Shown: positions 1,617-18,088 of the stretch, piece by piece | Position numbering within the stretch: the stretch's first letter is position 1 | How the letters are laid out: the number at the start of each line of letters is the position of its first letter | Source of the DNA: Verrucomicrobiota bacterium JB024 | GTDB taxonomy: Bacteria > Verrucomicrobiota > Verrucomicrobiia > Opitutales > Cerasicoccaceae | Length of the DNA stretch: 40,226 bases | Reading direction: 5' to 3' | Assembly (NCBI GenBank): GCA_030673825.1 | Contig: JAUTCS010000151.1 | Coordinates: 1 to 40,226, forward strand | Made by a program: the position numbers and the translations under genes | Notes under the pieces: model-generated | What the model was told of the DNA's origin: nothing | The model's input: the letters and a program-made list of their open reading frames with translations, nothing else | The model's database searches: none

Positions 1617-1791
1617 GTTCGGTATTATGAGATGACGCGATTTTGGCAAATAATTGGCAAACAGTTTCCTAAACTTGAGGTACTGTATTCTCTGAACTTC
1701 AGCCGATGAAGTGTGTGACGAAGCCAGAACAGTTGTCTCCACACGCCCTACAACTACAGGCGATATCATGGAACTCACTTGATAACCTCAA

Positions 1792-3168: not shown

Positions 3169-3586
3169 AGGGACACGGTTAAAGAATTCCGGGCCGGGGT
3201 TTCACTTTACTACCCGTGCTGGAACCGTCCTTGTGCCATCACTCTCCGCACTCCGAACTACCTCGCAGCCGAACCTCACCCGCAGCCGTCATGCTCGGGC
3301 GGATACATCACAAATAGTTCTGCCGTAAAGTCACCGGGTACATACGGAAGTGGGGTAAAGAACGCGACCAACGGCCGTTCACGCATCATAATCTTCCGCA
3401 CTGCCTCGCTCTAGTCTGCACCCATCGGGTTTTTAGTCGGATTTCAACATCCATTGAGGGCTTATCTGTATCCCCACACGGTAAAGGATCCGTCGCAATG
3501 CGCCCCGAAACGCGCTCTTGGTGAGACTGCCAGTGAGGCCCCCTCAATCGTCCATAATCAGCAGCCCAGGTGGCTAAAAGCAGGTC
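3169..3586. other. 418-bp intergenic region upstream of FAD oxidoreductase 1
   Basis: This stretch lies between the stop of the first PocR-AraC regulator and the start of FAD oxidoreductase 1, both on the minus strand. Short plus-strand frames inside it (for example 3160-3414) have no family resemblance and no start signal, and I treat them as noise. The one structured signal is the GACTA direct repeat at 3412-3438. I see no clear sigma-70 promoter or terminator. Confidence 0.6.
3412..3438 (-). promoter_or_regulatory. GACTA-N17-GACTA operator candidate (site C)
   Basis: On the minus strand GACTA occurs at 3438-3434 and again at 3416-3412, a direct repeat spaced exactly 22 bp and reading toward FAD oxidoreductase 1. 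The same arrangement occurs at 4614-4640 and 17757-17783. AraC-family proteins carry two HTH motifs and bind direct half-sites about two helical turns apart, so the neighbouring PocR-AraC regulators are the obvious candidates. Binding itself is inferred. Confidence 0.6.
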
Positions 3587-4603
3587 CTAAAGGCTGTTGA
3601 CATTGCTCAACAGCGGGGTGGAGAGACTCAGGCTGACGGGCGGCTCTCCGGCCCGGCAGTGCTCGCGGAAGGCGTTCGGCGTCATTCCGACGAAATGCCT
3701 GAAGACCTTGCCGAAGTGGCTCTGGTCCTGAAACCCGACGAAATAGCAGATCTCTCCCACACTGAAACGGTCCATGATCAGGAGCTGGATGGCGTGGTCG
3801 ATACGCACACGCTTGATGTACTCGGCCAGGCCGAAGCCGACGTTTTCCTTGAACGTCCGGCTAAGGTAGGTCGGGTGGCACTTGAGACTTTGTGCAATCC
3901 CCTCCACCGAGAGCTCATCCTCGTAGTGCCGGTGCACATGGCGCATGGCCGACTGCACGAGCGGGGAGAAGGAATGGTGGTTGTTGAGAAACTGCGTGTT
4001 CATCTCCGTGCGATAGCGCGACAGCGGCAGCCCGCTGGCCTTGACCGTACTGAGGGCGAAATCACAGACCAGACGCAGTCTTTCCCGGTAAACCGGCACA
4101 CTCTCGGGTGTGATCTCCGGCAGGTGGTTGAGCTCGTGAAGGTAGGCGTCGGGCGAGAACTGTCGCCGCTGGCAGTACTTCATGATCCGGCGGCGAGCCA
4201 GCTCGCGCGTGCCCCTGAGCAGAACCGAGCCGTAATAAAAGACCCCCATCAGCCGGTCGCAGAAAAACAGCGGCTCGACCATATCGGTAACCCCCAGGTG
4301 GCACTGACCGACGAAGCCCTGCCCACGCTTGCGTGCCAGCGTGTTGGTCAGGATCTTGTTCTTAATACAGTCGGCGTGACTCTGCCGCGAATGCCGGGCC
4401 TGGTTGCAAAACGCGCAGTTATGCATGCGAAAGCGCGAGGTCAGGCGCAGTTCCGGGATGTCGAATGTGATCCCGGTGAGGTCCTCGAAATTAAGCCGGA
4501 GCACCCCGGCATCCTCGACGAGCACACAGAGCCGCTCCAGCAGGGACTCTCCCGCAGCCAACTTGGGCTGGCGCTTATCGGTGGTATCTGAGGTCGAACT
4601 CAC
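3587..4603 (-). CDS. AraC-family regulator with PocR sensory domain, copy 1
   Basis: A 338-residue transcription factor. Residues about 25-185 form a PocR-type ligand domain, a PAS-like variant predicted to sense small organic molecules. Residues about 213-316 form an AraC DNA-binding domain, with SVEGIAQSLKCHPTYLSRTFK as the first helix-turn-helix and the typical VGFQDQSHFGKVFRHFVGMTP as the second. The PocR part carries cysteines at 63, 66, 79 and 101 (HNCAFC, CIKNK, GQCHLG). All four are kept in the paralogue at 18089-19171. The first codon is GTG. It is divergent from the FAD2-sulfatase-esterase operon, and the GACTA repeat (4614-4640) lies in the narrow gap, so it probably controls that operon and itself. 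The inducer is unknown. Confidence 0.9.
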   Translation of the reverse strand: MSSTSDTTDKRQPKLAAGESLLERLCVLVEDAGVLRLNFEDLTGITFDIPELRLTSRFRMHNCAFCNQARHSRQSHADCIKNKILTNTLARKRGQGFVGQCHLGVTDMVEPLFFCDRLMGVFYYGSVLLRGTRELARRRIMKYCQRRQFSPDAYLHELNHLPEITPESVPVYRERLRLVCDFALSTVKASGLPLSRYRTEMNTQFLNNHHSFSPLVQSAMRHVHRHYEDELSVEGIAQSLKCHPTYLSRTFKENVGFGLAEYIKRVRIDHAIQLLIMDRFSVGEICYFVGFQDQSHFGKVFRHFVGMTPNAFREHCRAGEPPVSLSLSTPLLSNVNSL

Positions 4604-4613
4604 AGCAAGCAGA

Positions 4614-4640
4614 GACTAATAAGGGGAAATTTACAGACTA
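4614..4640 (+). promoter_or_regulatory. GACTA-N17-GACTA operator candidate (site E)
   Basis: AGACTA occurs at 4613-4618 and again at 4635-4640, giving GACTA copies 22 bp apart in the 72-bp gap between the divergent PocR-AraC gene and FAD oxidoreductase 2. The second half-site continues as GACTATCTG, close to the GACTAGCTG at the sites near 17.8-17.9 kb. It reads toward the FAD oxidoreductase and ends 35 bp before the ATG at 4676, where it could place an activator next to RNA polymerase. It also sits 10-37 bp from the regulator's own start, which would allow autorepression. Confidence 0.65.
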
Positions 4641-4675
4641 TCTGAATCGGGGTGGCCGGTGTAAAGTCCAAAGGC

Positions 4676-6007
4676 ATGCCGCAGCACAAGCAGAGCCTGA
4701 AGACTGACGTTCTCGTCGCCGGCGGAGGCTGTGCCGGCTTGGCCGCCGCCCTCGCCGCCGCCCGTAAAGGCTGCGACGTGATTTTGGTCGAGCGAGCGCC
4801 TTTCGCGGGGGGGATTGTCACCGCCGTGGGTCTGCCCTACCTGGACGGACTCGTCGATCCGGACAGCGGCGCGATCGTCACGCGCGGCATCCCCGTGGAA
4901 ATACTCAGCCGCATGGGGGGCTGCGCCTGCGACGCGCAGCGAACGGCGGACATATCCCCCCGCTTACGCGAAGAAAACTCCCCCGCCGCCGTTCTAATCC
5001 CGAGCACCGAGCAGTTCAAGCGAGTGGCCGATGCCATGCTGACCGAATGTGGCCCGCGTCTGCGCATCCTCTACACCGGCACGGTCTGTGACGCAACCGT
5101 GCGCGAAGGCCGTATTGCCCGTGTATCCGTCGCCGCCAAGACTGGGCTGTATCCGATTGAGGCGCGGAGCTATATCGACGCCACGGGGGACGCCGACCTG
5201 GCCTGGCTCGCGGAGTGCGCGGTGGAAAAATCCACGCCACTGATGCCAATGACCCTGCACTTTCGCATCGGCAACGTACACCCCCACCCCGGTATGAAAG
5301 CGCAGATGCAGACTGTCTGTGAGCAGGCGACCCGGTCCGGGGAACTCAAGGCCTTTTACGGCCCGCACTTCGAGTGCCACTACGCCCCGGACGAGATCGA
5401 CGTGCATGCCATTCGCATCAACGGCGATGCCAGCGATGCTTTTGACCTCAGCCGGGCCGAGATCGAAGGTCGCCGCGACAGTTGGCTCATGTTCGAGCGC
5501 TGGAAAAAAGACGTCCCCGGTTTCGAGGATGCGTACTTCGTCACCTCCGGTCCCTTCATCGGCGTGCGCGAAACCCGCCGCCTGCAGGGCCGCTATCGGC
5601 TGCATGAGGACGACATCCTCGGGCACACGACCTTCGATGATGCTGTGGCAACGGGCACCTGGTACATGGACGTGCATCCGAACTCCGCCACCCCCGGCGA
5701 TTTTCAGGATTACAAGCCGTACTGGCCGGGGCCCTACCAGATCCCTTACCGGAGCCTGCTTCCAATTGAAGTCAACAATCTTTTGGTCGCCGGGCGCTGC
5801 CACTCCGCCACGCGCCAGGCTGCGGCCTCAAGCCGTGTCACCGCCACCGCCATGGCCATGGGGCAGGCTGCCGGGTACGCAGCAGCCTTGGCGCATAGTA
5901 GCCGCAAAGATGTCGGTGACCTAAACGGGGAATCCGTGGGCAACGCGCTTGCCGAGAACGGCGCGGGTATCTACGTTCAGGAGCGCCGCCCCGCCGCCAC
6001 CCGTTAA
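4676..6007 (+). CDS. FAD-dependent oxidoreductase (FAD_oxidored family), copy 2
   Basis: A 443-residue flavoprotein with the FAD-binding motif near the N-terminus (VLVAGGGCAGLAAALAAA) and an acidic ribose-binding position (VILVERAP). The C-terminal half has GVRETRRLQGRY and NLLVAGRCHSATRQAAASSR, matching the paralogue at 1792-3168. There is no signal peptide. The start could also be the in-frame GTG at 4652; I prefer the ATG at 4676 because it begins just before the Rossmann strand, as in the family. It is first in a plus-strand operon: the sulfatase starts 31 bp downstream and the esterase overlaps the sulfatase. This suggests the oxidoreductase acts on a product of the same substrate. The reaction is not known from sequence. 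Confidence 0.88.
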   Translation: MPQHKQSLKTDVLVAGGGCAGLAAALAAARKGCDVILVERAPFAGGIVTAVGLPYLDGLVDPDSGAIVTRGIPVEILSRMGGCACDAQRTADISPRLREENSPAAVLIPSTEQFKRVADAMLTECGPRLRILYTGTVCDATVREGRIARVSVAAKTGLYPIEARSYIDATGDADLAWLAECAVEKSTPLMPMTLHFRIGNVHPHPGMKAQMQTVCEQATRSGELKAFYGPHFECHYAPDEIDVHAIRINGDASDAFDLSRAEIEGRRDSWLMFERWKKDVPGFEDAYFVTSGPFIGVRETRRLQGRYRLHEDDILGHTTFDDAVATGTWYMDVHPNSATPGDFQDYKPYWPGPYQIPYRSLLPIEVNNLLVAGRCHSATRQAAASSRVTATAMAMGQAAGYAAALAHSSRKDVGDLNGESVGNALAENGAGIYVQERRPAATR

Positions 6008-6038
6008 AACACGCCCGACCAAGCCCGCCGTTTTCCCC

Positions 6039-7496
6039 ATGTGCCCCGACAGCCCGAATATCCTTTTCATCACCTGTGATCAACTGCGCAAGGACGCCCT
6101 CGGCTGCTACGGCAACCCGGCCATCCACACGCCCAACATCGACCGCCTGGCCGCCCAGTCGCTTCAGCTCGACGATATGCACGTGGCCTGCCCCGTCTGC
6201 GCCCCCAACCGCGCCAGTTGGGCCACCGGGCGCATGCCCTCGGCCCACGGGTTGAAAGCCAACGGCACGGCTCTGCCTCAGCACGAGTTGACCCTTATGG
6301 AGGTCCTGCGGCGCAACGGCTACCACACGGGCGCGGCGGGCAAACTCCACTTCCGCCCGCAGTGGAACTACCGCCCCGGCGACAAGGAGGGCGTCCTCAA
6401 AGCCGCCTCTGGCGAAGGTGCCGCCGACCCGCAACCGCCACTGTGGGAACTGCCGTTCTACGGACTGGAGAGCTGCATGCTCGTCGAGGATCATAACGCA
6501 GGCCCCTACGGCGAAATGCTCCGCGCCCACGGCTTCGACCCTTGGGAGGATCCGCACAGCTTCACCTACCCGCAGCACACCACCCAGCGCTCCAGCTACC
6601 CCGCCCACCTGAGCAAGACGACCTGGATCACAGATCGCTCGCTGGAGTTTCTGGAACGGCAGGACGCAGCCCGTCCGTTTTTCCTGTGGACCTCGTACGT
6701 CCACCCGCATCATCCCTTCGTCGTGCCCGCGCCCTTTGACACGCTCTATAATCCGGCCGAGATGCCGCTGCCACAGTGGCGTCCGGGCATGGACGCAGAC
6801 TTCCCCGAGCGCTACCGGCGCAAGTATCTCGCCGAAGGCGCCTCACACGAGGCCATCGGCATGCACAAGCTCAGCGACGAAGACTGGCAGCGCATCAAGG
6901 CCTATTATTACGGTATGATCAGCCACATCGACGAGCAGGTCGGCCGCCTCCTCGACTGGCTGGAGAAACATGATCAACTCGAACGTACCTTGATCGTCTT
7001 CTCTTCCGACCATGGGGAGCTTTTGGGAGACTACCACTTGCTCTTTAAGGCCACTCATCACGGCTGCGTAACCTCCGTGCCCAGCCTGTGGAAACTTCCC
7101 GGCGCGTCCACAAGCAACCGCCGGCTTGACGGCCTGTGCAGCTGCACCGACCTGATGCCGACCCTGCTCGACCTCGCGGGCACGGACATCCCGGAGGGCG
7201 TTCAGGGTCGCAGCCTGCGCCAGCTCTTCGAAGACGGCAGCGCACCGACACGCGAGGAGCTTCTGATCGAGGACCAGACCAACCTGCGCACGCTACTGAC
7301 CGGTCGCTGGCGCTTCACCTGGCACGGCCACGGCGAGCGCGGAGAGCTTTTCGACCGCCAGAACGACCCCCACGAACTGCACAACCTCTGGGACAGCCCC
7401 GAGCATGCAGTCACCCGCCGCGAGCTCACCGCCCGCCTCATGGACACGCTCATCGCCAATCTCGATTCCCTCCCCCTCAAGACCGCCTTATGCTGA
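6039..7496 (+). CDS. Sulfatase (formylglycine-dependent, alkaline phosphatase superfamily)
   Basis: A 485-residue sulfatase. It begins with NILFITCDQLRKDALGCYGN, the metal-binding N-terminal strand, and carries the formylglycine signature C-A-P-N-R at residues 54-58, with Cys54 the residue to be converted. FSSDHGELLGDY near residue 325 supplies further metal ligands, and a C-terminal sulfatase subdomain follows. The ATG at 6039 is chosen because the frame upstream overlaps the previous gene and shows no leader; the ATG follows a pyrimidine run (ttcccc). There is no obvious signal peptide, unusual for glycan sulfatases and suggestive of action on an imported sulfated sugar. The maturation enzyme is not in this window. 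The substrate cannot be assigned. Confidence 0.92.
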   Translation: MCPDSPNILFITCDQLRKDALGCYGNPAIHTPNIDRLAAQSLQLDDMHVACPVCAPNRASWATGRMPSAHGLKANGTALPQHELTLMEVLRRNGYHTGAAGKLHFRPQWNYRPGDKEGVLKAASGEGAADPQPPLWELPFYGLESCMLVEDHNAGPYGEMLRAHGFDPWEDPHSFTYPQHTTQRSSYPAHLSKTTWITDRSLEFLERQDAARPFFLWTSYVHPHHPFVVPAPFDTLYNPAEMPLPQWRPGMDADFPERYRRKYLAEGASHEAIGMHKLSDEDWQRIKAYYYGMISHIDEQVGRLLDWLEKHDQLERTLIVFSSDHGELLGDYHLLFKATHHGCVTSVPSLWKLPGASTSNRRLDGLCSCTDLMPTLLDLAGTDIPEGVQGRSLRQLFEDGSAPTREELLIEDQTNLRTLLTGRWRFTWHGHGERGELFDRQNDPHELHNLWDSPEHAVTRRELTARLMDTLIANLDSLPLKTALC

Positions 7497-8332
7497 CACG
7501 CTCCTTCTGTCTTCTATTGGCCGTGCTCATGACCGCTTTCGAGCCTCTTCATGCAGCCGCCTCATCGGACGAAGCCCGCATCCGTCATCAGAATTTCGCC
7601 AGTAAAGCCCTCGATAAAAACATGGCCTACACCGCCATCGTACCGGAGGGCTATGACGAGAGCCGCAGCGACTGGCCCGTCCTCTTTTTTCTCCATGGAC
7701 TGGGACGCAACGAAAACAGCCTGACTGATGATCCCACCTGCCGCGAGTTACTGTTGAAGCAACCCTATGTCATCATCCTTCCGCGCGGCGAAGGTGGCTG
7801 GTACATCAACTCTCCGGTTAATCCCGCGGGCCGCTACGCCGACTACATGGACGAGCTTTTCAAGCAAGTGGCAAAAGATTACCGACTCTCCACCGATCCA
7901 GCCCAACGCGGTATCGGCGGGTGGTCGGCAGGTGGCTACGGCAGCGTGCAAACCGTGCTTCGTCACCCGGGTGCTTTTACCGCGCTGGCCACAATCATTG
8001 GTGTTGTCGATTATCCGCGCGAGGACACGGCGGATAATCCGCTCAAATTCGATGTCATCACCAGCGTTTTCGGCAAGGATCCTGAGGTCTGGCAGGCATA
8101 CAACCCCCTGCTCCGCGCCAAGGAACTCCAGAATATCGACGTGCTCATCGTGATCGGCGACCGCGCCTTTGACCGGGGGATGAACGAACGATTCGTAGAC
8201 GAGCTGGAAGCCGCGGATATTACCGTGACGGTCGAACACGTCCCGCCGGGGCACACCTTCGCCGCCATCCAACAGGGGCTGCCCCATGTGCTGAACTTCA
8301 TGCGCGGGCACATCACAGCGGATCGCAATTAG
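7490..8332 (+). CDS. Secreted alpha/beta-hydrolase esterase (esterase D / feruloyl esterase-like)
   Basis: A 280-residue hydrolase with an N-terminal hydrophobic leader (about residues 1-23, ending LHAAA) that looks like a signal peptide. The fold is marked by VLFFLHGLGRN (oxyanion strand) and the nucleophile elbow G-W-S-A-G with Ser146. A late His in VPPGHTF completes the probable triad, with an Asp likely in VIGDRAFDRG. It starts inside the end of the sulfatase gene (7-bp overlap), so the two are translationally coupled. It probably removes acyl groups (acetyl or aromatic) from the glycan handled by this operon. The exact ester is unknown. Confidence 0.82.
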   Translation: MLTRSFCLLLAVLMTAFEPLHAAASSDEARIRHQNFASKALDKNMAYTAIVPEGYDESRSDWPVLFFLHGLGRNENSLTDDPTCRELLLKQPYVIILPRGEGGWYINSPVNPAGRYADYMDELFKQVAKDYRLSTDPAQRGIGGWSAGGYGSVQTVLRHPGAFTALATIIGVVDYPREDTADNPLKFDVITSVFGKDPEVWQAYNPLLRAKELQNIDVLIVIGDRAFDRGMNERFVDELEAADITVTVEHVPPGHTFAAIQQGLPHVLNFMRGHITADRN

Positions 8333-8336
8333 CAAC

Positions 8337-9386
8337 TCACATCAAGACGCCCGAACCCCGTTCTGGGCTGAGCGCAGCCCCATTCTTACCTAGGATTGGG
8401 CCCAGTCGGGCGGCCAGCCGCTCCGCGATCACCGCCTGCCCCAAGTCCGTGGGGTGCAGCAGGTCGGCCTTCAGTAATGACAACTCGGGCAGCAGTTCGG
8501 CTCCTTCGACCAGCACGACGCCTCCAGCTTCAAACTCACTTGCAAGTTCGCGCAAGCAAGCATTATAGGCCAACTCGCGGCGCCTCAGCTCGGGCTCGAC
8601 ACCTGGCAGGCAAGCACCCTCCGGCAGGACAGTGATCAGCACCACAGGTTTACCCCTGCCCGCCGTCACACATGTATCGATAAACGCACGACTGCGCCGG
8701 GCAAACTCGTCCTCATCAAAATGCCCACGCATGTTGATACCCAGCTCAAGGGTCAACAGGTCCCAGCAGCAGCTATCGCAGAAGAACCGCGCCAGCTCAG
8801 GCTCGGCGAAGCATCCGCCGCTCAGCCCTTTGTTTTGAACATCGACAGCCAGCCGCCTCCCAGCCTGAGCCGGATAGCCGGTCAACGAGGAATGGGTGAT
8901 GGACGATCCGTAGGCCAACCATTTCGAGGCAGGCTTTTCGGCGGCGACCGGGGGGCGAAGCTCGCCCCCCATGCTGTCGAAATAATGCAGGACGATGCGG
9001 GCTCGTCCGAAGATTACGCGCCAGACCGACGGGGCAAAAACGCGCCCGCCGACCTTCTCGGCTTCGCGCAGTTGCCCGAAGCGTTCTTCCTCAACCAACT
9101 CCAATGTCTGAACTGATCCCATCCTTAACAGACAGGCGCGGACAAAATAATCCCCCCGGTACAGATGGACCTCCGTGTCGGTGTCGAGCGACTGAAGGCA
9201 CAGGCGTACCCGATGTCCATCGGTAACAAAACGTAGCTCACCCCCCGTGGCTTCTTCGGCGGCGGCCCGTCCGTTATCGGTCAGGCGATGGCGAACGGAG
9301 GCCGGCAGACGTGCCAGCAGCCAACCGCCGATGGGCCGGGGTTCCGGAAAAAGATTATGAAACTCGCAATACCGGATAAGGTCCAT
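8337..9386 (-). CDS. SGNH/GDSL-type hydrolase with N-terminal beta domain
   Basis: A 349-residue esterase-like protein. Residues about 1-145 form a beta-rich accessory domain. From about 155 the SGNH hydrolase follows: block I G-S-S-I-T (catalytic Ser162), block II around GLSGGCF, block III G-I-N in LELGINMRG, and block V D-L-L-H (catalytic Asp and His) in ADLLHPTDLG. This matches the SGNH_hydro families of carbohydrate esterases. No signal peptide is visible. Its ATG overlaps the stop of the upstream glycoside hydrolase by one base (TGATG), so it is co-translated and probably de-acylates the same glycan. It ends 4 bp from the convergent esterase. Confidence 0.82.
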   Translation of the reverse strand: MDLIRYCEFHNLFPEPRPIGGWLLARLPASVRHRLTDNGRAAAEEATGGELRFVTDGHRVRLCLQSLDTDTEVHLYRGDYFVRACLLRMGSVQTLELVEEERFGQLREAEKVGGRVFAPSVWRVIFGRARIVLHYFDSMGGELRPPVAAEKPASKWLAYGSSITHSSLTGYPAQAGRRLAVDVQNKGLSGGCFAEPELARFFCDSCCWDLLTLELGINMRGHFDEDEFARRSRAFIDTCVTAGRGKPVVLITVLPEGACLPGVEPELRRRELAYNACLRELASEFEAGGVVLVEGAELLPELSLLKADLLHPTDLGQAVIAERLAARLGPILGKNGAALSPERGSGVLM

Positions 9387-11917
9387 CAGCGCGGACGCGA
9401 CAGCTTCAGCAGCGCCGGCCCCTGGTCGATATGGATGCAGCTTTTGTCCCCATCCTCAGTCACGGGCAATGTCGTCTCGGAAAAGAGTTCACGCGCCTGC
9501 GCATAGCTGCCATCAAGCTCGACCGTGACGTCGCTCGCCCACGGGTCGACAAAGACGTAGAGACACTCCTCCGACTCGCGCAACGCAGCCTGGCGCGGGC
9601 TCAACTCGCCCTCTGACGACAGATAGCGCACACGCGGTGCATCCGCGGCGGCAAGTTTTTCTCCAATATCCTTCAGCGCAGGAGAGAGTGCTAACGCGGC
9701 CCAATTAAAGGGCCAGGCGGCAGACTTAACCGTCATGCCCTTGCGCAGGGCACGCAGGGCCTCGGCATCGAAACGCTGCACATGCGGGTTGTTCTTCAGC
9801 CAGGCCAAGTCTGCCTCCGAACGGGTCCGTCCATAGCGGTCATAGCGGGCGAAGTCCGGCGGCACAAGCAGAGTTCCTCCGCGCTGGACAAAGGCCTTGG
9901 CTGAGGCCATCGCATCGTCATCGACAGCGACTACGCCGGGAGCGAAGAGCACCTTAACCTCTGCCGGGATTCCCTCGTGCAACTGGCGGTCGGCATAAAC
10001 ATCGTAGAGCCGCTGAAGGCGAGTCAGCGCGGCCACCCCGACCTGTACGTCCTGCAGGTACGACTCGGGTGAACCACTGAGCGCATCGTTGAGGTACAGC
10101 GTATCGAGCGAGTACCACAAGGCCACCCCATCGCTGACCGGGGCCGACGCGTGCTGAAGGTCCTCGTCATCCATCGCACGGACAACCTCAAAGATTTTTT
10201 CCGAGCCGCGGGCGGGCACATCGTGCACATCGCCGAAGAGCCAGAAGGACGTGCCGCTGGCCCCGAAGGCGAAACAATACATGGCCACGTACTGCCCAGC
10301 CTGCGGGTCAAGGTAGTTCGTCTCGTGGATGAAGAATTCGCGCCCGTTGGCCGCCCCGCGCAGGATGCCCATGTACGCCTGGAGGAAATCCAGCACGTAA
10401 AAATCTATCCCAAGAGCGTCCAGGCCATCGGATGTCGTCCATGCGAACAGCCCCGTATCGGCGGCATTGAAAAGATAATTGTTGATGCAGTGGCCAACGA
10501 CGGCATTGGTCGTGACGGGGGCACGCACGCCGCCGGACTTGAGCGCGTGCATATTCTCGACGAGGAAATCATTCACGGTCCAAGCCCAGAACTCGGCCCA
10601 GTCGGTCCAGGCCGGAGCATCCTCGCGGGTGGGCGTGGGCAACTCGGAGAGATCGCCGATCCACTGCTCGGGAATGTCACGCAGAGACGGGTCGATCCCC
10701 CCGGTGAGCCCGGTGTTGCGGCGGGCCGTCGGCAGGGGTGGGAAGACATCCTCCCACGCGCCGAACCAGCGTCCCCGTCCCTCAGGACCGAACCACGCAT
10801 CATTTAGCGCCTCCAGGCTACCATAGCGATTTTTCAGAAACTGTATAAAGGTCAAGCCACGCGCCTTACTCAGGTCGAACTGCACATCCGCAAGCGAGTC
10901 CCACGGAAAAAACGCTCCAAGCGGACGGTTCTCCAGAAGCACGTGGTTGCGGCCATTGGCGGCGGTGTCCGGAATGGATGATCGCCAGGCGGCGATATCT
11001 GGGTAGCGCTCTTTCAGGTGGCGCTTCCAGGTCTCCACACTGCAACCGATCGTCATCGGGTCGTAGCCCAGGATCGGATTAGCCGCCGTGCTCCAGAAGG
11101 GCTCGTTGTTCATCTGGTAAACGAGGATATTGTCCACCTCGGCGGTACGCTCGCCCCAGGTGCGGTAGGCCGTCTGGAGCGCATCGCGCATGCCCGCCGA
11201 GTTGTAGTTGAAGCCCCAGAAGCTCCGGCGCAGGTCGGGCACGAGGTTTTGTGTAAAGACAAAGTCCTCGGGCACCTCGGGCAGGGGCTTCACGTTGACG
11301 ATGAACATCGACTCCAGCCCCCAGGCGCGCGCGTGTTCCAGCTTCGCCAATGAGTCCGTGATGGTCTCGTCGATACGCTGCAGATCGTTCCCTCCTTGCT
11401 GCCAGAAGGAGTTCATACGGAACATCCCTTCGCCGAACAGCGCCCACTTCGCCAGCCGGTCCGTCGGGTCACGGTCGTAACTGACGCCGATACGGTATTT
11501 CTGCCGCTCGAAGAATGCCTTTGTCTCCGTAGAGAGGGCTTCGGCGTTGTCCTGACAGAACGCGTCGATCGCGGCCTGCACCTCCGCCAGCCCGGATTCG
11601 ATATTCTCCCGCAGGACTGTCCGCTTCCCGGCATCAGCCGCACCTCCGGCCACCTCCAGCCAATCCGCGACATCGTCCAAACGCGGCTGGGTCTTCCCCT
11701 CGAACTCCGTGTACGCCTCACGCGGAAATCCATCGCCGCCATGGATATCCCAGTACTCCAGAACGTTCATCCATGCCTGACTATCCTGCCAGGCCTCCTC
11801 CAGTTGTTGCCAGTCGTCCTGGACGGCGTCCTTAGCAGATGTCGTTACCATGGGGGTGAAGATAAGAAGGGCAGCAACCAAGGATGAACTGCGGAAGTGT
11901 GAACAACAGAATCGCAT
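9386..11917 (-). CDS. Secreted GH-A clan glycoside hydrolase, GH42-like
   Basis: An 843-residue exported protein with a leader around residues 8-27. The middle looks like a (beta/alpha)8 barrel of clan GH-A. A probable acid/base Glu272 sits in VYQMNNEPFWS and a probable nucleophile Glu532 in FFIHETNYLD. YGSLEALNDAWFG around residue 365 and the phrase ETWKRHLKERYPDI are typical of GH42 beta-galactosidase-like proteins. A glutamine-amidotransferase-like domain (about 600-740, VLFAPGVVAVDD) follows, as in GH42 trimerisation domains. The N-terminal 200 residues are unusual, so the family may be new. It heads an operon with the SGNH hydrolase. Start and leader are clear; the substrate is open (beta-galactoside or similar). 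Confidence 0.72.
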   Translation of the reverse strand: MRFCCSHFRSSSLVAALLIFTPMVTTSAKDAVQDDWQQLEEAWQDSQAWMNVLEYWDIHGGDGFPREAYTEFEGKTQPRLDDVADWLEVAGGAADAGKRTVLRENIESGLAEVQAAIDAFCQDNAEALSTETKAFFERQKYRIGVSYDRDPTDRLAKWALFGEGMFRMNSFWQQGGNDLQRIDETITDSLAKLEHARAWGLESMFIVNVKPLPEVPEDFVFTQNLVPDLRRSFWGFNYNSAGMRDALQTAYRTWGERTAEVDNILVYQMNNEPFWSTAANPILGYDPMTIGCSVETWKRHLKERYPDIAAWRSSIPDTAANGRNHVLLENRPLGAFFPWDSLADVQFDLSKARGLTFIQFLKNRYGSLEALNDAWFGPEGRGRWFGAWEDVFPPLPTARRNTGLTGGIDPSLRDIPEQWIGDLSELPTPTREDAPAWTDWAEFWAWTVNDFLVENMHALKSGGVRAPVTTNAVVGHCINNYLFNAADTGLFAWTTSDGLDALGIDFYVLDFLQAYMGILRGAANGREFFIHETNYLDPQAGQYVAMYCFAFGASGTSFWLFGDVHDVPARGSEKIFEVVRAMDDEDLQHASAPVSDGVALWYSLDTLYLNDALSGSPESYLQDVQVGVAALTRLQRLYDVYADRQLHEGIPAEVKVLFAPGVVAVDDDAMASAKAFVQRGGTLLVPPDFARYDRYGRTRSEADLAWLKNNPHVQRFDAEALRALRKGMTVKSAAWPFNWAALALSPALKDIGEKLAAADAPRVRYLSSEGELSPRQAALRESEECLYVFVDPWASDVTVELDGSYAQARELFSETTLPVTEDGDKSCIHIDQGPALLKLSRPR

Positions 11918-11920
11918 ATC

Positions 11921-11934
11921 AATTCGCGTGAATT
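11921..11934. promoter_or_regulatory. Near-palindrome abutting the GH-A hydrolase start
   Basis: AATTC-GCGT-GAATT, 5-bp arms around a CGCG-like centre, lies 4 bp before the start codon at 11917. It could be an operator or a hairpin that limits ribosome access. No GACTA repeat is found upstream of this gene. Function is inferred only. Confidence 0.3.
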
Positions 11935-12107
11935 AAACGTACAGAATAGAATATCAAAGCCGACAGGCCACGTATACCGAAAGCTGGCCCTCAACGACGG
12001 CTCCCGAATATACGGGCTCTTCGACTACGCGCCTCGCCCCTGAAAACCGGTGCGAAAAATCCCGATTCGGACCTTTCGCGACGCCTCCAGCGGGGCAGAG
12101 ATTTACC

Positions 12108-12938
12108 TCAGCTCTGGCGACGCTTGCAGTGGCGGAAGGTCAGCGCGCCCAAGACAATCAGACCGGCCACCAGCGCGGAGCTGGAAGCCTCCGGGATGCT
12201 CGTGTAGGTCAGTGAAGGGCCGTCATAGCTGGTGTTCTCGCGCGTGGCGAACTGATGAATGACGTTATCGCTCGCATCTGCGCCGCCAGTGGTGTCTGTG
12301 CGTACGATGAGAAAGGATACATACTGGCTGCCCACAACCGTGCTCAGGAAGTTGTCGAGTGCGTCGCCAGAAACCGTAATGGTATCGCCATTCGTACCTG
12401 TTCCAGTGATGCTGAAAGTTCCCACCAGTGTTGTGGTGGCAGCGTCCGTGCTGTAGGTCGTGGCCGTATTGTTGCCGGGAGCATTGTTCCAGGTGACGGC
12501 ATTGGGCGGGGTCGGGCCGCTCACGCCGGTCTCCCCACTTCCTTCGACCCAGTCCTGGCCGGTGGCGGAGCCATCGAGCCCATAAATGGCAAAGTTCCAC
12601 ACCATACCCACCGGGGAGGCTCCCGCACCAGCGAGCACGGTCATCGTGATCGAGGAGTTATCGACTGCCCCCGCGCCATTGGAGCCGGTGAAGTCAAAAC
12701 GGATGATCCCCTTGCGGGCATAGCCCATATTGCCACCCCCCTTGACCTGGAGTAGAGTGCCGTTGCCGTAGTTGGTCGTGGCATTCGTACCATAGGAGCG
12801 CAGGTAGGCGTCTGCCGATGCTTCGACAGTCACCTGGGCCTGGGTGACCAGCGGCAGCACTGCCATCAGCGCAAGCGCGGCCAAAGCCGGACGGCGGGTG
12901 TGACGTAAGTCGTTAAACAAGCTGGAGGTAATGTTCAT
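12108..12938 (-). CDS. PEP-CTERM surface protein with DNRLRE-type domain
   Basis: A 276-residue exported protein. A signal peptide covers about residues 17-36 (ALAALALMAVLPLVTQAQ). Residues about 37-245 resemble DNRLRE-type beta-sandwich domains: VTVEASADAYLRSYG near the start, RKGIIRFDF, and AVTWNNAPG. The C-terminus is a PEP-CTERM-like tripartite signal: IPEAS, a hydrophobic helix and CKRRQS. Such proteins are cut and anchored by an exosortase, which is not in this window. DNRLRE domains are found in secreted glycan-associated and adhesin-like proteins. The GACTA-like element at 13023-13060 lies 85 bp upstream. It is transcribed in the same direction as the Verru_Chthon A pair but has its own upstream region. 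Confidence 0.8.
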   Translation of the reverse strand: MNITSSLFNDLRHTRRPALAALALMAVLPLVTQAQVTVEASADAYLRSYGTNATTNYGNGTLLQVKGGGNMGYARKGIIRFDFTGSNGAGAVDNSSITMTVLAGAGASPVGMVWNFAIYGLDGSATGQDWVEGSGETGVSGPTPPNAVTWNNAPGNNTATTYSTDAATTTLVGTFSITGTGTNGDTITVSGDALDNFLSTVVGSQYVSFLIVRTDTTGGADASDNVIHQFATRENTSYDGPSLTYTSIPEASSSALVAGLIVLGALTFRHCKRRQS

Positions 12939-13022
12939 AAGACAATGTTGGGTGGTTGAGGTTGAAACTAATGCAATCGGGTTTGTTATGGATAAATGTA
13001 CACCAGCGGCCCACTAAATGAA

Positions 13023-13060
13023 TAGTCCAAGACCAACCTTGAATTCGTTCGTATTTAGTT
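13023..13060 (-). promoter_or_regulatory. GACTA/AACTA operator variant (site A)
   Basis: On the minus strand AACTAAATACG (from 13060) is followed, 33 bp on, by GGACTA (ending 13023). The segment GGTTGGTCTTGGACTA matches GGTTGATTCTGGACTA of site B (17757-17783) at 13 of 16 positions, and ACTAAATRCG is shared too. Site A has 11 extra bases between the two blocks, one helical turn. It lies 85 bp before the PEP-CTERM gene. This looks like the same regulator site with an added turn. Confidence 0.5.
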
Positions 13061-13082
13061 CGCATGTGAGATCGAGAGAAAC

Positions 13083-13778
13083 TTAGTGTACAGCCGGGCG
13101 GTCCGTAATGCGGCGCATGGTGAAATGGCCACGCGGATTTTCCAAGATGAGGAATAGCGTCCGCAAGTGCTGCCGCTGCGTCCATCTCCCCGTATAGAAG
13201 GGCTCCCATCCCTCCTTCCCCTGATAGGCGAAGCGCATCCGCACCTCCTCCTGTCCGTCCGCTGTGACACCGGGCACGGTGTGCATCTGGCCGGGTTTCA
13301 GCACAAAGACATCGTCATCGAGCGCTGCCGCGACATTGACTGCGCTCGCTGTCAGATTAATAAAACGGCAGGCCCCTGCGGGAAACTCCATCAGGTTATC
13401 TGGCAGGGATTGGGCGAAGACCCGTCCGCTCCCGTCCGGTGCCTCCGAAAGCAGTAACAGGTAGGTAGACTCGCCCCCGGCAAGATCAACCCCCGCAACC
13501 GGTGTCGGCAACACGGCCCCCTCTGGCACAGGATCATCTTCACGGTAAAGGAGTAGCCGCGTCGGCCCCCGATAGGCATAGGGACCGCTACGCACCAACG
13601 GCAGTGCCCGCAGAGGAACTTTATTCTCACCTGAAACGTAGAAAAGCCCCTCGACCGGGCGACTTCCTGAAATCGTCGTAAAGCGGCAGTTCATCACGCC
13701 GGGCTCCTGCTGAGCGTGGCACAGCGGCGAGAGCACAGTCAAAACGAGCAACACTAGACTGGGGGTCAAGCGGTTCAT
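13083..13778 (-). CDS. Exported protein of unknown function, partner of Verru_Chthon A-like protein
   Basis: A 231-residue protein with a signal peptide (about residues 5-22, ending LCHAQQ). The mature part is beta-rich, with segments such as MNCRFTTISGSRPVEGLFYVS, LLLYREDDPVPEG and RFINLTASAVNVAAALDD, suggesting one or two beta-sandwich domains. I do not recognise a named family. Its ATG overlaps the stop of the Verru_Chthon A-like gene by 4 bp (ATGA), so the two are translationally coupled and probably work in the same envelope structure. No transmembrane segment follows the leader. Confidence 0.7.
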   Translation of the reverse strand: MNRLTPSLVLLVLTVLSPLCHAQQEPGVMNCRFTTISGSRPVEGLFYVSGENKVPLRALPLVRSGPYAYRGPTRLLLYREDDPVPEGAVLPTPVAGVDLAGGESTYLLLLSEAPDGSGRVFAQSLPDNLMEFPAGACRFINLTASAVNVAAALDDDVFVLKPGQMHTVPGVTADGQEEVRMRFAYQGKEGWEPFYTGRWTQRQHLRTLFLILENPRGHFTMRRITDRPAVH

Positions 13779-16700
13779 ATTTCATCCTCGGTAAGCCAGC
13801 GGAAGGCCACGATCTTGAACTTGCGCCCGAACTGTCGGTTGATATCAGAGAGGGCGGGATTTTCCGGACGGACCGGCTCACCGGCATCACGCAGGGAAAC
13901 CGACGTCTCAGGCGCATCGGAAGCGTCCACATATTCCGGAACGCGCTGGACGATCGCCTCCAACCAGGCCCGGGACTCAATCTCTCCGCTGACGGCGCTC
14001 TCCACATCTCCGTAGGCGCGAATACGGAAGGTATCCGAGCGCGCCGTCAGGACGGGGGCAAGCCCGCGGAGGATGTCGTTTTGCAGGAGCCATCCCGCCA
14101 CCCCGGCCCCCTGCGCAGGGGCGAGATTGGCAGCGTTCATCCGCTGATAGGGAGAACTTACGCTGGCGGAAATGTTATACGAGGACCCGAGCTCGGCAGT
14201 GGAGTTGATCCCCGAGTTGTCGATGGCAGCCTGGAGCGCTCCGGCCTTGCCAGTATCGCCGTTGGTCAGCCGACGGTTGACAAAGTCCGACAGCGACAGG
14301 AACGGCCCCCGTGCCTTCACCTCCTCGACGATGTTCTCAGCCAGTGTCTCCACCTCGGCCTCACTGAGGGTGCGAAATCCCGTCCAACGCCGGCCCGGGT
14401 CATCCACCGGCAGGGAAAAACGCGGCGCCGGATAGTCCAATGCATTGGCGCTGAGGCTGCCGTTTCCACCGGTGTAGCTGGCCAGCGGATACGTCTCCCC
14501 CGGGGCCAGCGCGAGGGAGCCAAGCACGGCCTTCCATGCCTCGACCGAGGTCGAGTTCACGTTAAAAGCGCCATCCACCATCAATTGTGACGCCGCCGTA
14601 TCCACATCCTGGATACGTTCGAGCGTTTCCGCCCAAGTACTCGCCTGTCGTGGAATCATCCGCGGGTTGGGTAGCGGCTTACCAGCGCTGAGGTAGTTCT
14701 CATCAAAGTTTTCGTAGGGTGGGAGCTGAGCAGCCATCGATTCCAGCTCGGCAGAGCCGTAGCGCGAATAACTCGCGGGTACCCCGGAAAAAAAGTATTC
14801 GTCAAAGAGCGCGTCGTTGAGTGCGTAGGAGTAGTCCACGACCGGGAATTGCGAGCCACTATCCTGATCCCAGATCGCGTAGTAATCACCAGCAGGGATA
14901 TAGGGCGAGGCGTAGGAATTACCCACCGCATACTGCGGCAGGATGTCGTAGTAGGAGACGTTGGCGTGCATGAGTTCGCCCACGGATAGCAGCGGCTGGC
15001 GCGGCACATCAAAAAGGATCAGGCGAGACTGGCCGCCGTCCTGCGTCTCATAACTGGGACCGTAAAAGCTCAACCCGCCGCTTTCCTGGATGTCGAGCTG
15101 GCTGTCGCTGGCGTCGAGCAGGCCGCCGCGGTAGATCTCGGTAAAGGGCATGTCCGGGTTGCCAATAAGCTTATTCGAGACGAGAGCGCGGGCGTTAAAC
15201 TGCGAGAAGACCGGCACACCGTCCGCGCTCTCCTGCGTGGTCTTGAGCGCGGCGTAGATGGCGGCAAAAGGCACCGGGTTGCCGACGAGGCCATCAACCG
15301 GCCCCAGCGAATAGGGGGTGTCGGCCGTGACGAATCGCGCGTAGCGCAGCCCTCCGCCCATGCGGATCGGCGTGTTACCGGAGAAATGGTTGGGCTCGGT
15401 GTTAAGGTCGATGCCCTCCGCTGTGAGGAACCCGTTGTTGCCGTACTGGGTGCCGATCGACTCGGCGAAAAAAGTCACCGTGATGTCGCCGGGATGCCCC
15501 GCATCCACCTTGATCTCCGGCAGGTCCGTGGTCGGGTTGGGCGAGCTGGAGTTGTAATTGATAAAGGTGCCGTTCTGGCTGGTTTTCAACAGCTCGACAA
15601 AAGAGGAGTTTGTCGGATTGAACTGGTTGCTCAGCCAGTAATTTGAGTTATTCTCCGAGCCCTTGGTCATGAGCGGGTGCCAGGGAATATCCGAGCTGGG
15701 CAAAGAAAAGACCCGCACCTCCCCCGGGGCCAGCGTAACCGGCTGGGTCTCGAACTGCATCACCTGCTTGTACTCGCCCACCCCGAGATTCGCAAAGGTG
15801 TTGCCGGAAGCGTCCGTCTCGCTCGACGGTCCCCAAGCGTTGGCCTTAAGCAACTCGATGAGGTTGTATTTGCCGTTGGCAGGGCCGGTCAGGTAATCGA
15901 CTCCGTCCACTTTGATCTGCAAGCGCACGATGGGCTCGAAATTGAACGAATACCGCGTGGCCGCGAGGGTGGCGTTGTAGGGGTTCCAGAGCACGACGGC
16001 GGGGCTCATGTCCAAACGCAGACGATAAGATATCTCGCTGGTAACAGGGTCTTCGATCTTGACGCTGGAAAGCGAGAAGACGATCTGGAGGCGTGTCAGG
16101 ACGGGCGCGAGGGTGTTCCATACGGGGTCGCGGCGGGCGCTGTCGCCGAGATCATAGGTGTTGCTGGCATGCAGGGTCGGGGGCAACGCAAACCAGTTTC
16201 CGCGCATCCACTTGCTGGTGTCGTTGGTGAAGTCGTGCCGGGGCAGAAAATTCTGATCGTCCGGCCCCATGCCCCGCACCTCAATGTCCGCGTCGCCGGC
16301 GCTGAGATCACCGATACCTGCCGGACCATTCTCCCCGCTGACGTACCCGCGAAAGGTCATGGAACTGCTCAAGTCATGGAGATTCGGGATCCATGGCTGG
16401 TGGGGCTGGTAAAGATTGGCGTAGTGGTAGAGTACGTCCCAATAGGGTCCATAGAGGCTGCCGTCGTAGGGAGCCCCATAGAGGCCATTCGGGCCGGGCA
16501 CCTGAAAAACCGCCTGCGGGCGCGGCCAGCCATTCGACCACTGGGTACTGTCGCTCTGAAGCTCCTGCATGAACGTCTGCCACTGGTCGCCCAGGCCGCG
16601 ACTGAGGTCTTTTTTCAACCCGCCGTGCCGTGTGTCGCTGAGCACACCCGCCGAGGCGAAAGTCACGTCATGGAAGCTCTCCTTCACCCAGTCGGCATCG

Positions 16701-17539
16701 AGAGCCTCGTTCGAGAGCCAGGAGAGTTCAGTGCCCGAGCCGACCTTTTCCAGTTTGGCCGTGTTGACGGGATAGTCTGCTCCAGCGTCGAGTAGCAACT
16801 CTCCCGCCGTACGCTGGCTGGTCACCAGCGGCATCCGATCACGCTGATGACGCTGATCCGCTGTCCCGGCGTCCAGCTCGCCCGTGTGGTCCACGAGGTT
16901 GAGCTTGGCCTTGACGCCCTCGTCGCCCACCCACCAGGCAAAGCCACCGACTTTCCCGCCCGGCTCCTCCACCCGCACACGGCCCGCAATAATCTCACCC
17001 GGATCGGAAACTGCCTGCGGTGTAAAAGTGTTTTCACCCAGCAGGCGAACCGTTTGCACTTCCCCATCCACGACGTTGACGGACTCGATGGTCGCGCTGG
17101 GGTCGGGAGCGTTGTTGCTGGAAATGAGCCAGACCGGAGGGTGCTCGGACTCGTCGATCCGGCCCTCGCCGTCACGGATGCCCGAGGTGTAGTCGAAAGG
17201 ATTGTCGCCCTCGACGTTCCAGACTCCCGTCCAGTAGCGGTTTTCGTCGCGAGTATCGTCAAGGATACCGGCGGTCGCCGTGACGCGCTGGTCCGGCCCC
17301 GCCGCCGCCTGGAGTTCGCCCAGTGCCTGCGACAGGCCCAGAAGCGCGTTGGCACGGGCATCGAGCTGCCGGTTGGAAATAGAGGCCGCGTGCGTTTCTA
17401 CCTGAAGCTGCACACTGAGGGAAATCAGCAGTAGCAGGATAAACCCCATCAGCACCATCGCGATCACGAGGGCCATGCCTCGGCGCGCAAGCCGACGGCG
17501 ACCCGTGGGCCATGCTCTGTCTACGCCTTTTCGCATCAT
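13775..17539 (-). CDS. Verru_Chthon cassette protein A-like giant exported protein
   Basis: A protein of about 1254 residues. After a basic N-terminus (RRRLARRG) comes a single hydrophobic segment, MALVIAMVLMGFILLLLISL, then a long extracellular region. RRG-MALVI resembles the entry of pseudopilins such as GspK but lacks the usual Glu5. The length, the QVETHAA and LGLSQALGELQAAAGPD phrases just after the helix, and the C-terminal ESRAWLEAIVQRVPEY block fit the family named Verru_Chthon cassette protein A, known from Verrucomicrobiota. The usual B, C and D partners are absent here; only a small exported protein follows, overlapping by 4 bp. ATG at 17539 is chosen over the GTG at 17542. A GACTA operator lies about 218 bp upstream. 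The role is unknown, perhaps a surface or secretion structure. Confidence 0.72.
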   Translation of the reverse strand: MMRKGVDRAWPTGRRRLARRGMALVIAMVLMGFILLLLISLSVQLQVETHAASISNRQLDARANALLGLSQALGELQAAAGPDQRVTATAGILDDTRDENRYWTGVWNVEGDNPFDYTSGIRDGEGRIDESEHPPVWLISSNNAPDPSATIESVNVVDGEVQTVRLLGENTFTPQAVSDPGEIIAGRVRVEEPGGKVGGFAWWVGDEGVKAKLNLVDHTGELDAGTADQRHQRDRMPLVTSQRTAGELLLDAGADYPVNTAKLEKVGSGTELSWLSNEALDADWVKESFHDVTFASAGVLSDTRHGGLKKDLSRGLGDQWQTFMQELQSDSTQWSNGWPRPQAVFQVPGPNGLYGAPYDGSLYGPYWDVLYHYANLYQPHQPWIPNLHDLSSSMTFRGYVSGENGPAGIGDLSAGDADIEVRGMGPDDQNFLPRHDFTNDTSKWMRGNWFALPPTLHASNTYDLGDSARRDPVWNTLAPVLTRLQIVFSLSSVKIEDPVTSEISYRLRLDMSPAVVLWNPYNATLAATRYSFNFEPIVRLQIKVDGVDYLTGPANGKYNLIELLKANAWGPSSETDASGNTFANLGVGEYKQVMQFETQPVTLAPGEVRVFSLPSSDIPWHPLMTKGSENNSNYWLSNQFNPTNSSFVELLKTSQNGTFINYNSSSPNPTTDLPEIKVDAGHPGDITVTFFAESIGTQYGNNGFLTAEGIDLNTEPNHFSGNTPIRMGGGLRYARFVTADTPYSLGPVDGLVGNPVPFAAIYAALKTTQESADGVPVFSQFNARALVSNKLIGNPDMPFTEIYRGGLLDASDSQLDIQESGGLSFYGPSYETQDGGQSRLILFDVPRQPLLSVGELMHANVSYYDILPQYAVGNSYASPYIPAGDYYAIWDQDSGSQFPVVDYSYALNDALFDEYFFSGVPASYSRYGSAELESMAAQLPPYENFDENYLSAGKPLPNPRMIPRQASTWAETLERIQDVDTAASQLMVDGAFNVNSTSVEAWKAVLGSLALAPGETYPLASYTGGNGSLSANALDYPAPRFSLPVDDPGRRWTGFRTLSEAEVETLAENIVEEVKARGPFLSLSDFVNRRLTNGDTGKAGALQAAIDNSGINSTAELGSSYNISASVSSPYQRMNAANLAPAQGAGVAGWLLQNDILRGLAPVLTARSDTFRIRAYGDVESAVSGEIESRAWLEAIVQRVPEYVDASDAPETSVSLRDAGEPVRPENPALSDINRQFGRKFKIVAFRWLTEDEI

Positions 17540-17756
17540 CACTGACAGTTCGAGGTTGGGGCATTATCCATCGCGGCGCCGCAATTTGTTGCAGGTAAGG
17601 CCGCGCGTCGGTACGCGGCGTCTGGAAGGGAAACGATGAAGCCGATTTTCACAAGCAAAAGGGGGTTATGCCTTAGGGGTAGGCGGTAGTCAGAAGATAA
17701 AATAAACAAAGGCAAATGAGATGGGCTCATCATAGCGGCGGAAGCCGAACGTCAGC

Positions 17757-17783
17757 TAGTCCAGAATCAACCCGCATTTAGTC
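17757..17783 (-). promoter_or_regulatory. GACTA-N17-GACTA operator candidate (site B)
   Basis: On the minus strand GACTA occurs at 17783-17779 and 17761-17757, spaced 22 bp and reading toward the Verru_Chthon A-like gene. The second half continues as GACTAGCTG, identical to the half-site of site D and close to GACTATCTG at site E. Confidence 0.62.
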
Positions 17784-17908
17784 TTCATTTGGCCTATGAA
17801 TCGCCAGAATCCAGAGACGCTTTACGTAAAACAGGCGTTAGCCCACCAGAAATAAGGTCATTGCTTCCAAGGGACAATTGCTGACAAGCGAGCATCACGT
17901 CGGTTTCA

Positions 17909-17956
17909 GACCAGTTTATAGGCGGAAATCGACTAGCTGTGAGGCATGTTGGACAG
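17909..17956 (+). promoter_or_regulatory. GACCA-N17-GACTA operator candidate (site D), with third phased GAC
   Basis: GACCA at 17909-17913 and GACTA at 17931-17935 are 22 bp apart and read toward the second PocR-AraC gene; the second half continues as GACTAGCTG. A further GACAG at 17952-17956 keeps the phase (21 bp) and may be a weak third half-site. It lies about 150 bp before the ATG at 18089, a position that would allow autoregulation. Confidence 0.5.
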
Positions 17957-18088
17957 ATATTATCGCCCCATGTACATACCCGCGACTGGTCCCCTGCCCC
18001 TCCCCGGTCTGAGGTGGCGGGCCGACGACGATCTTCCCCAGCAATGCTGGATGGAAACCGACACGGCCCAGATCAACCCCACCGACCA

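Follow-up and report, generated by a model that had tools for sequence, protein, structure and literature searches.

The window analysed here is a 40-kb contig (40,226 nucleotides) of Verrucomicrobiota bacterium JB024, whose genome (G000) comprises 4,603,737 bases. It contains four paired GACTA sites, which in our view probably serve a local PocR-AraC regulon as class II activator operators; the regulon would comprise a sulfatase/oxidoreductase/glycosidase cluster and a giant pseudopilin-like protein. Their intergenic placement, their register with a -10-like element, conservation in two relatives and co-occurrence with one of two adjoining regulators all speak for such a regulon, which had been proposed in a preliminary description of this DNA. 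The four candidate operators are hereafter referred to as S1, S2, S3 and S4, and regulators 1 and 2 as R1 and R2 (Table 1).

Paired GACTA sites and their promoter context

A motif search of the window confirmed the coordinates and strands claimed for the four sites, each of which is oriented toward the gene that it precedes. In S2, S3 and S4 the gene-proximal half takes, as had been reported, the longer form GACTAGCTG or GACTATCTG. The exact GACTA-N17-GACTA pair occurs three times in G000. All three occurrences are inside the window, with none elsewhere, and all are intergenic and adjoin two of the three PocR-domain genes of G000. The GACTA word is found 27 times in the window on both strands, and about 0.009 exact pairs are expected per fixed spacing. 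A spacing of 22 bp is the sole one between 6 and 60 that gives any GACTA pair in the window; as the searches of other genomes presupposed it, the sites found there are uninformative on the spacing itself. When all 5-mers were scanned at spacings of 11-33 bp in the non-coding DNA of the window (7,326 bases, from a hand-made gene list), GACTA at 22 bp, together with its reverse complement marking the same sites, alone reached three pairs; in all window DNA, coding included, three exact pairs were reached by 128 of 23,552 5-mer/spacing combinations. The arrangement found in the window, a direct repeat at about two helical turns, is that of a class II AraC-type operator.

One-mismatch matches to the motif number 43 in G000, four in the window and 39 elsewhere. 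A genome-wide regulon was rejected for such close matches: the 39 other places lack a -10 element, and 35 of them are inside open reading frames (ORFs) of at least 100 aa (both strands, open ends allowed). What the close matches form is one predicted gene-cluster regulon, not a genome-wide one.

A TAnnnT hexamer, absent from the preliminary description, follows all four window sites at 21-22 bp. No such hexamer was found at 20-23 bp after any of the 39 other one-mismatch places, and of the 144 GACTA words in the window and the 39 stretches, eight, among them those of the four sites, have TAnnnT 21-22 bp downstream. In seven promoters, four from G000 and three from a relative, G033 (see below), the -10 hexamers match TATAAT at four to six of six positions, while the hexamer at the -35 position, taken with a 17-bp spacer, has 0-3 of six bases in common with TTGACA in every promoter. 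The best -35 at spacers of 15-19 bp has four matches of six (S3, 15 bp). The proximal half-site is thus located at a weak -35 with the -10 in register, which, judged by sequence alone, is the layout of a class II operator. Because of the -10 element 21-22 bp downstream, each site can be taken as a putative activator-type promoter, and the S1-S4 promoters look activator-dependent.

An alignment of the seven sites, a small sample, revealed a possible second box. Ahead of the proximal GACTA, G at -10 and a purine (R) at -7 are present in 7/7 sites; in the distal half-sites the counts are 5/7 and 6/7. An A is often found at -6 from GACTA in this box. The half-sites seem to be two-boxed, with the boxes one turn apart, as expected for a protein with two helix-turn-helix (HTH) motifs.

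Conservation in relatives and co-occurrence with R1

Sites were found in two relatives of G000: a congener, G054, and Coraliomargarita sp. SDUM461004 (G033), which belongs to another family. All four sites recur in G054 at the same places, three of them being the sole exact pairs of that genome, and the S4 counterpart is followed, at an unchanged distance, by TAGAAT. In the S1 region, operator and -10 are identical in 32 of 33 columns, against 281 of 395 in the remaining intergenic DNA; in the S3/S4 region the figures are 61 of 67 and, outside, 252 of 372. The G054 cluster is split over two contigs, and since these share 2,021 bp at their ends with 100% identity, the gene order is most likely the same as in the window.

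The comparison with G054 also brought out conserved stretches besides the sites. A block of about 29 bp (window 3282-3310), within the long leader that separates S1 from FAD oxidoreductase 1, is nearly unchanged amid differing surroundings and may be a leader peptide or an RNA element. Other conserved stretches directly precede the distal half-sites in S1 (3439-3457) and S3 (17784-17812); these possibly represent part of the half-site together with a site for a second regulator.

In G033, the S2 counterpart, GACCA-N17-GACTA-N21-TAAAGT (L038:5918-5971), lies between R1 and the FAD oxidoreductase 2 orthologue (67%). It was located through the pair alone, the same-spaced TAAAGT being noticed only later. 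A second site, AACCA-N17-GACTA-N21-TATTCT, was identified by composite score before a GH42-type/MFS gene pair on the opposite side of R1. The S3 counterpart came from a whole-genome search, on a contig previously unexamined: it is an exact pair with TATAAT at 21 bp (L092:8758-8811), directly upstream of the giant orthologue, which is followed, in keeping with the window, by the 231-aa gene, one more small gene and the GH42-like gene (55% over 829 aa). Since the strict composite pattern described below is found in only 2 of 270 genomes without an R1 orthologue, an accidental match just before the giant orthologue is very unlikely. As to the conservation asked for in the preliminary description, the four sites recur in G054 and the FAD-oxidoreductase-2 and giant-gene sites in G033, in which no counterpart of the FAD-oxidoreductase-1 site was found.

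Pair and -10 element were next combined into composite patterns. A wide composite, RACYA-N17-GACTA-N21/22-TANNNT, was searched in 10 genomes (three carriers of R1 orthologues and seven others). It finds only S1-S4 in G000, only their four counterparts in G054 and three sites in G033, which precede a sulfatase-type, a GH42/MFS and a giant-protein operon; outside the carriers there is one match in the seven genomes, in G020, inside frames of 557 and 566 aa. Its reversed controls gave two matches in G033 and one in G069. As RACYA was chosen after the GACCA and AACCA sites were known, the strict composite, without this widening, gives the fairer count. In 273 genomes of the order it has nine matches: three in G000, three in G054 and one each in G033, G011 and G148. 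Seven of the nine are in the three genomes with an R1 orthologue, so that the suggested co-occurrence of motif and regulator holds in this sample. The reversed control of the strict composite gave, by row count, 24 matches, which are spread over 21 genomes of the order sample and spare the three carriers. Of the two strict matches in genomes lacking an R1 orthologue, that of G148 is inside a 1,027-aa frame, and that of G011 is outside the listed ORFs, near a contig start.

R1-like proteins were detected in 5 of 387 genomes of a phylum sample and 2 of 10 of the family (E<=1e-30), and in 2 of 43 of the family of G033 (E<=1e-40). With the order sample included, the R1-like clade comprises six genomes (G000, G054, G033, G186, G050 and G342); the clade is rare. 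R1 orthologues (>=72%) were found only in G000, G054 (99%) and G033 (72%). The bare exact pair has no occurrence in G186, G050 or G342, and the motif was not found in the loci of their distant regulators (the second copy of G186, two in G050, two in G342), as covered by 20-kb loci and the space beside each regulator. The remaining G186 regulator, 43% identical to R1, has the helix EQSHFSRVFK, the most similar among the more distant paralogues, and beside it is an imperfect candidate, GTCAA-N17-GACTA-N22-TATTAT (G186 L039:10594-10620), which was excluded from the conservation counts. Around the third PocR protein of G000 (C106), 19% identical to R1, no composite site was found in its 20-kb region at the score used. 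Five of the six genomes of the clade (G000, G054, G186, G050 and G342) have two copies at the thresholds used, and in G050 a PF12831 oxidoreductase is once more oriented divergently to one of them (L042).

Regulators and alternative explanations

The claim that two PocR-AraC paralogues adjoin the sites is borne out by domain analysis. Both R1 and R2 carry a PocR domain (PF10114; 55.2 and 48.8 bits, cut-off 23.9), and HTH_18 and HTH_AraC are over cut-off in both, as in two-HTH proteins of the AraC/XylS type. An assignment of either protein as a PocR orthologue (NF047788 equivalog) was rejected, the scores being 104.6 bits for R1 and 81.1 bits for R2 vs a cut-off of 500. The start of the second regulator had to be revised: the 410-aa ORF opening at 17939 is too long, and comparison with G054 makes ATG 18089 most likely. 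Alignment of the two proteins, with recognition helices placed as is usual for the AraC family, revealed a nearly identical second helix (DQSHFGKVFRHF vs DQSHFGRVFRRL; shared QSHFG(K/R)VFR), while the first is similar (HPDYLGRLFK in R2, HPTYLSRTFK in R1). In G033, no second R1-like protein was found with R1 as query at E<=1e-30 or 1e-40, thresholds that do recover R2 in G000 and G054; no search was made with R2 as query. Since G033 has R1 and sites yet no detected R2, R1 is the likelier binder and the best candidate for recognition of the motif.

Several observations weigh against the proposed regulon. Genome motif counts were set against a control, the same pattern read backwards, which gave 5 exact and 166 one-mismatch matches in G000 vs 3 and 43 for the motif. 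As the control counts exceed those of the motif, the pair number is unremarkable and the case depends on placement. As to the intergenic frequency that the preliminary description proposed to test, placement agreed with the regulon, all exact matches being intergenic and most other one-mismatch places lying inside ORFs, but the totals were not above the reversed control. A scan of the whole window with up to two mismatches gave 17 matches vs 12.0 expected, which 9 of 100 shuffles reach and which is not significant. The widening to RACYA was made post hoc, after the GACCA and AACCA sites were known. The S2 intergenic region is 99% identical to that of G054, so its counterpart there is uninformative. 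Only one of four exact pairs in G033 has a -10 element; the other three (C22, C44 and C152) were discarded, since none has TAnnnT at 20-23 bp, two being inside long ORFs and one straddling an ORF start. A site upstream of the FAD oxidoreductase 1 orthologue of G033 (73%) was sought beside the gene and not found. Just three carriers of R1 orthologues were found, two of them congeners; the bare exact pair has 18 occurrences over nine genomes without R1-like proteins; and the distant regulators, 33-43% identical to R1, are without the motif except for the one imperfect G186 candidate.

The operators could be real activator sites of R1 alone, R2 being a mere cascade target with its own site or role, and we regard this as quite possible. 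G033 has three composite sites and R1 with no second R1-like protein detected, and the first recognition helix of R2 differs from that of R1; against this, the second helix is nearly the same in both proteins, S4 stands before R2 itself, and the G033 search used R1, not R2, as query. Repression, or a mixture of both modes, is somewhat doubtful. It is suggested by a divergent promoter-like match for R1 at S2 (TTTACA-17-GATAGT, 4665-4637, minus strand), the -10 of which overlaps the complement of the proximal half-site, and by TTTACT-17-GATAGT at the same place in G033 (by eye), so that a protein bound at S2 would block R1 transcription in negative autoregulation. However, the promoter scan gave three such matches vs 4.5 in shuffles, i.e. 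no excess, and conservation of the divergent promoter may stem from the overlapping operator and forward -10.

Binding of the motif by some DNA-binding protein other than a PocR-AraC regulator appears improbable. Adjacency of regulator genes is not binding, and a loose R1 search gave 58 candidates in G000, which makes it probable that this genome encodes many other AraC-type proteins. Yet the strict pattern occurs in all three R1-orthologue genomes vs 2 of 270 others, the sites of the carriers are at genes that adjoin R1 or are homologous to window cluster genes, and a two-box layout in 22-bp tandem is one that AraC-type dimers typically use. The half-sites are only 5 bp long, the motif was picked after being seen and its bare pairs are no more numerous than those of the reversed control, all of which would fit chance repetition or a functionless promoter duplication from shared ancestry. 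We nevertheless consider this explanation extremely improbable: chance was rejected on placement, -10 register and recurrence in relatives, including an exact pair before the giant orthologue in another family, and the flanks of S1-S4 are, by eye, unlike each other.

Target genes, proposed mechanism and known systems

The features of the window are listed in Table 1. The giant gene had been named Verru_Chthon A-like, a name that is not upheld: its product has only two NCBIfam matches, both below cut-off, of which GspK scores 16.9 bits vs 130 and Verru_Chthon cassette protein A (TIGR02600) 8.9 bits vs a curated 332.3. It resembles the latter in length (1255 vs 1296) and in an N-terminal alignment from profile position 1, but differs from it in this score. 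The CBM96/DNRLRE-domain protein (12108-12938) has a presumably PEP-CTERM-like C-terminal tail.

Table 1. Candidate operators, regulators and neighbouring genes in the window.
Feature	Position	Strand	Remarks
S1 operator, GACTA-N17-GACTA	3412-3438	-	-10-like TATGAT 3385-3390, 21 bp downstream; before FAD oxidoreductase 1; whole 3385..3438
S2 operator	4614-4640	+	TAAAGT 4662-4667, 21 bp downstream; before FAD oxidoreductase 2-sulfatase-esterase operon; whole 4614..4667
S3 operator	17757-17783	-	TATGAT 17729-17734, 22 bp downstream; before giant gene; whole 17729..17783
S4 operator, GACCA-N17-GACTA	17909-17935	+	TATTAT 17958-17963, 22 bp downstream; before R2; whole 17909..17963
R1, PocR domain and AraC-type two-HTH domain, 338 aa	3587..4603	-	Pfam
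R2, PocR-AraC paralogue	18089..19171	+	41% identical to R1; start at ATG 18089 from G054
FAD-dependent oxidoreductase 1 (PF12831)	1792..3168	-	Putative S1 target; Pfam
FAD-dependent oxidoreductase 2 (PF12831)	4676..6007	+	First in S2 operon; Pfam; ORF opens GTG 4652, likely start ATG 4676
Sulfatase (PF00884)	5949..7496	+	Second in S2 operon; Pfam; start probably later (485 aa in G054)
Esterase (PF00756)	7136..8332	+	Third in S2 operon; Pfam; later start probable (282 aa in G054)
Giant protein, 1255 aa, pseudopilin-like N-terminus	13775..17542	-	First in S3 unit; orthologue 66% over 1244 aa in G033
231-aa protein, signal-peptide-like N-terminus	13083..13778	-	4-bp overlap with giant gene; adjacent also in G054 and G033
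CBM96/DNRLRE-domain protein	12108..12938	-	Possibly in S3 unit; Pfam; NCBIfam DNRLRE below its cut-off
GH42-like glycosidase	9386..11917	-	Pfam; behind giant gene in same order in G033
GDSL esterase	8337..9386	-	Pfam; 1-bp overlap with GH42-like gene
40-codon ORF	17970..18092	+	First part matches start of 601-aa GH42-like gene of G054

Between S4 and R2, G054 has two genes (L037:11072-14271), one of 601 aa, weakly GH42-like, and one of 500 aa, GH39-like just under cut-off, and about 3.1 kb are missing in G000 by comparison. The stop of the 40-codon frame overlaps the R2 start (ATGA). With the two genes missing and a 40-codon remnant left, a deletion has placed R2 directly behind S4, and we infer that S4 was originally the promoter of an enzyme-regulator operon.

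Further relatives of the giant protein were noticed in other genomes. In G186 (L040, ~850-4213), a homologue (35% over 437 aa) is located at most 6 kb from a PocR-AraC regulator; its pseudopilin-like N-terminus is, by eye, out of frame with the remainder, which means that either the gene or its assembly is disrupted. In G033, a 231-aa frame close to a contig start (L092:528-1223) is 36% identical over 184 residues of the giant protein, and there may be a second giant paralogue near the first.

The following mechanism is proposed for the PocR-AraC regulon. The two repeats would be half-sites of an AraC-type operator, ~15 bp each with a 22-bp period, each consisting of a purine-rich box and then, one helical turn on, a GACTA box. 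They would be bound by a dimer of a PocR-AraC protein, most likely R1 and possibly also R2, when its PocR domain senses a small catabolite. Since the proximal half-site abuts a poor -35 and the -10 is at 21-22 bp, the bound protein would recruit RNA polymerase as a class II activator. FAD oxidoreductase 1, the FAD oxidoreductase 2-sulfatase-esterase operon, the giant unit and R2 would be induced jointly. The giant unit would include the giant and 231-aa genes and perhaps the CBM96, GH42-like and GDSL genes, and induction of R2 would create a positive loop if R2 binds too. Simple hydrocarbon derivatives are the predicted ligands of the PocR domain according to the title of a 2005 article by Anantharaman and Aravind, cited in PMC4207490. 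That the inducer is linked to 1,2-propanediol derived from fucose or rhamnose is conjecture. R1 and R2 share with PocR of propanediol utilisation (PDU) loci a PocR sensor domain joined to an AraC-type HTH domain, but differ from it in their equivalog scores, given above, and a Pfam scan of 20 window ORFs gave no propanediol or microcompartment family.

Similar operator layouts are described for two AraC/XylS regulators. At PmtlE of Pseudomonas fluorescens, MtlR has a pair of similar blocks, each of 15 bp, at -72/-58 and -50/-36, upstream of the -35 and with a 22-bp period (PMC4514859). Were transcription to start 7 nt downstream of the -10 hexamer, the half-sites found here would by our own arithmetic occupy about -71/-57 and -49/-35, which is close to the arrangement of MtlR. 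The box sequences differ, and in contrast to the mannitol-responsive MtlR, R1 and R2 carry PocR domains; the operators here are predicted from sequence. XylS at Pm of Pseudomonas putida has tandem TGCA-N6-GGNTA half-sites with a 21-bp period (PMC4514859, PMC5481539). The sites in the window resemble these in being a direct repeat of two-box half-sites with the same box order and one-turn separation, but have the boxes GACTA and GNNR, a 22-bp period and a different sensor domain.

In the open-licence PMC literature, judged by title or abstract start, no description of a PocR-AraC regulon in Verrucomicrobiota was found, and nothing was found there for the Verru_Chthon cassette by name. The type of system is known; the operator and the gene set appear to be new.

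The analysis provides a precise and checkable candidate operator and gene set, in which a giant pseudopilin-like protein would be tied to a sulfatase/glycosidase cluster by cis-regulation in two families. It is conceivable, though we suggest it only tentatively, that one signal acts through paralogous PocR-AraC proteins and a shared GACTA code, so that the enzymes and a giant secretion or surface protein are co-induced for polysaccharide processing, with R2 as a feed-forward amplifier. The S1-S4 promoter set offers a route to the inducer, and hence to the substrate.

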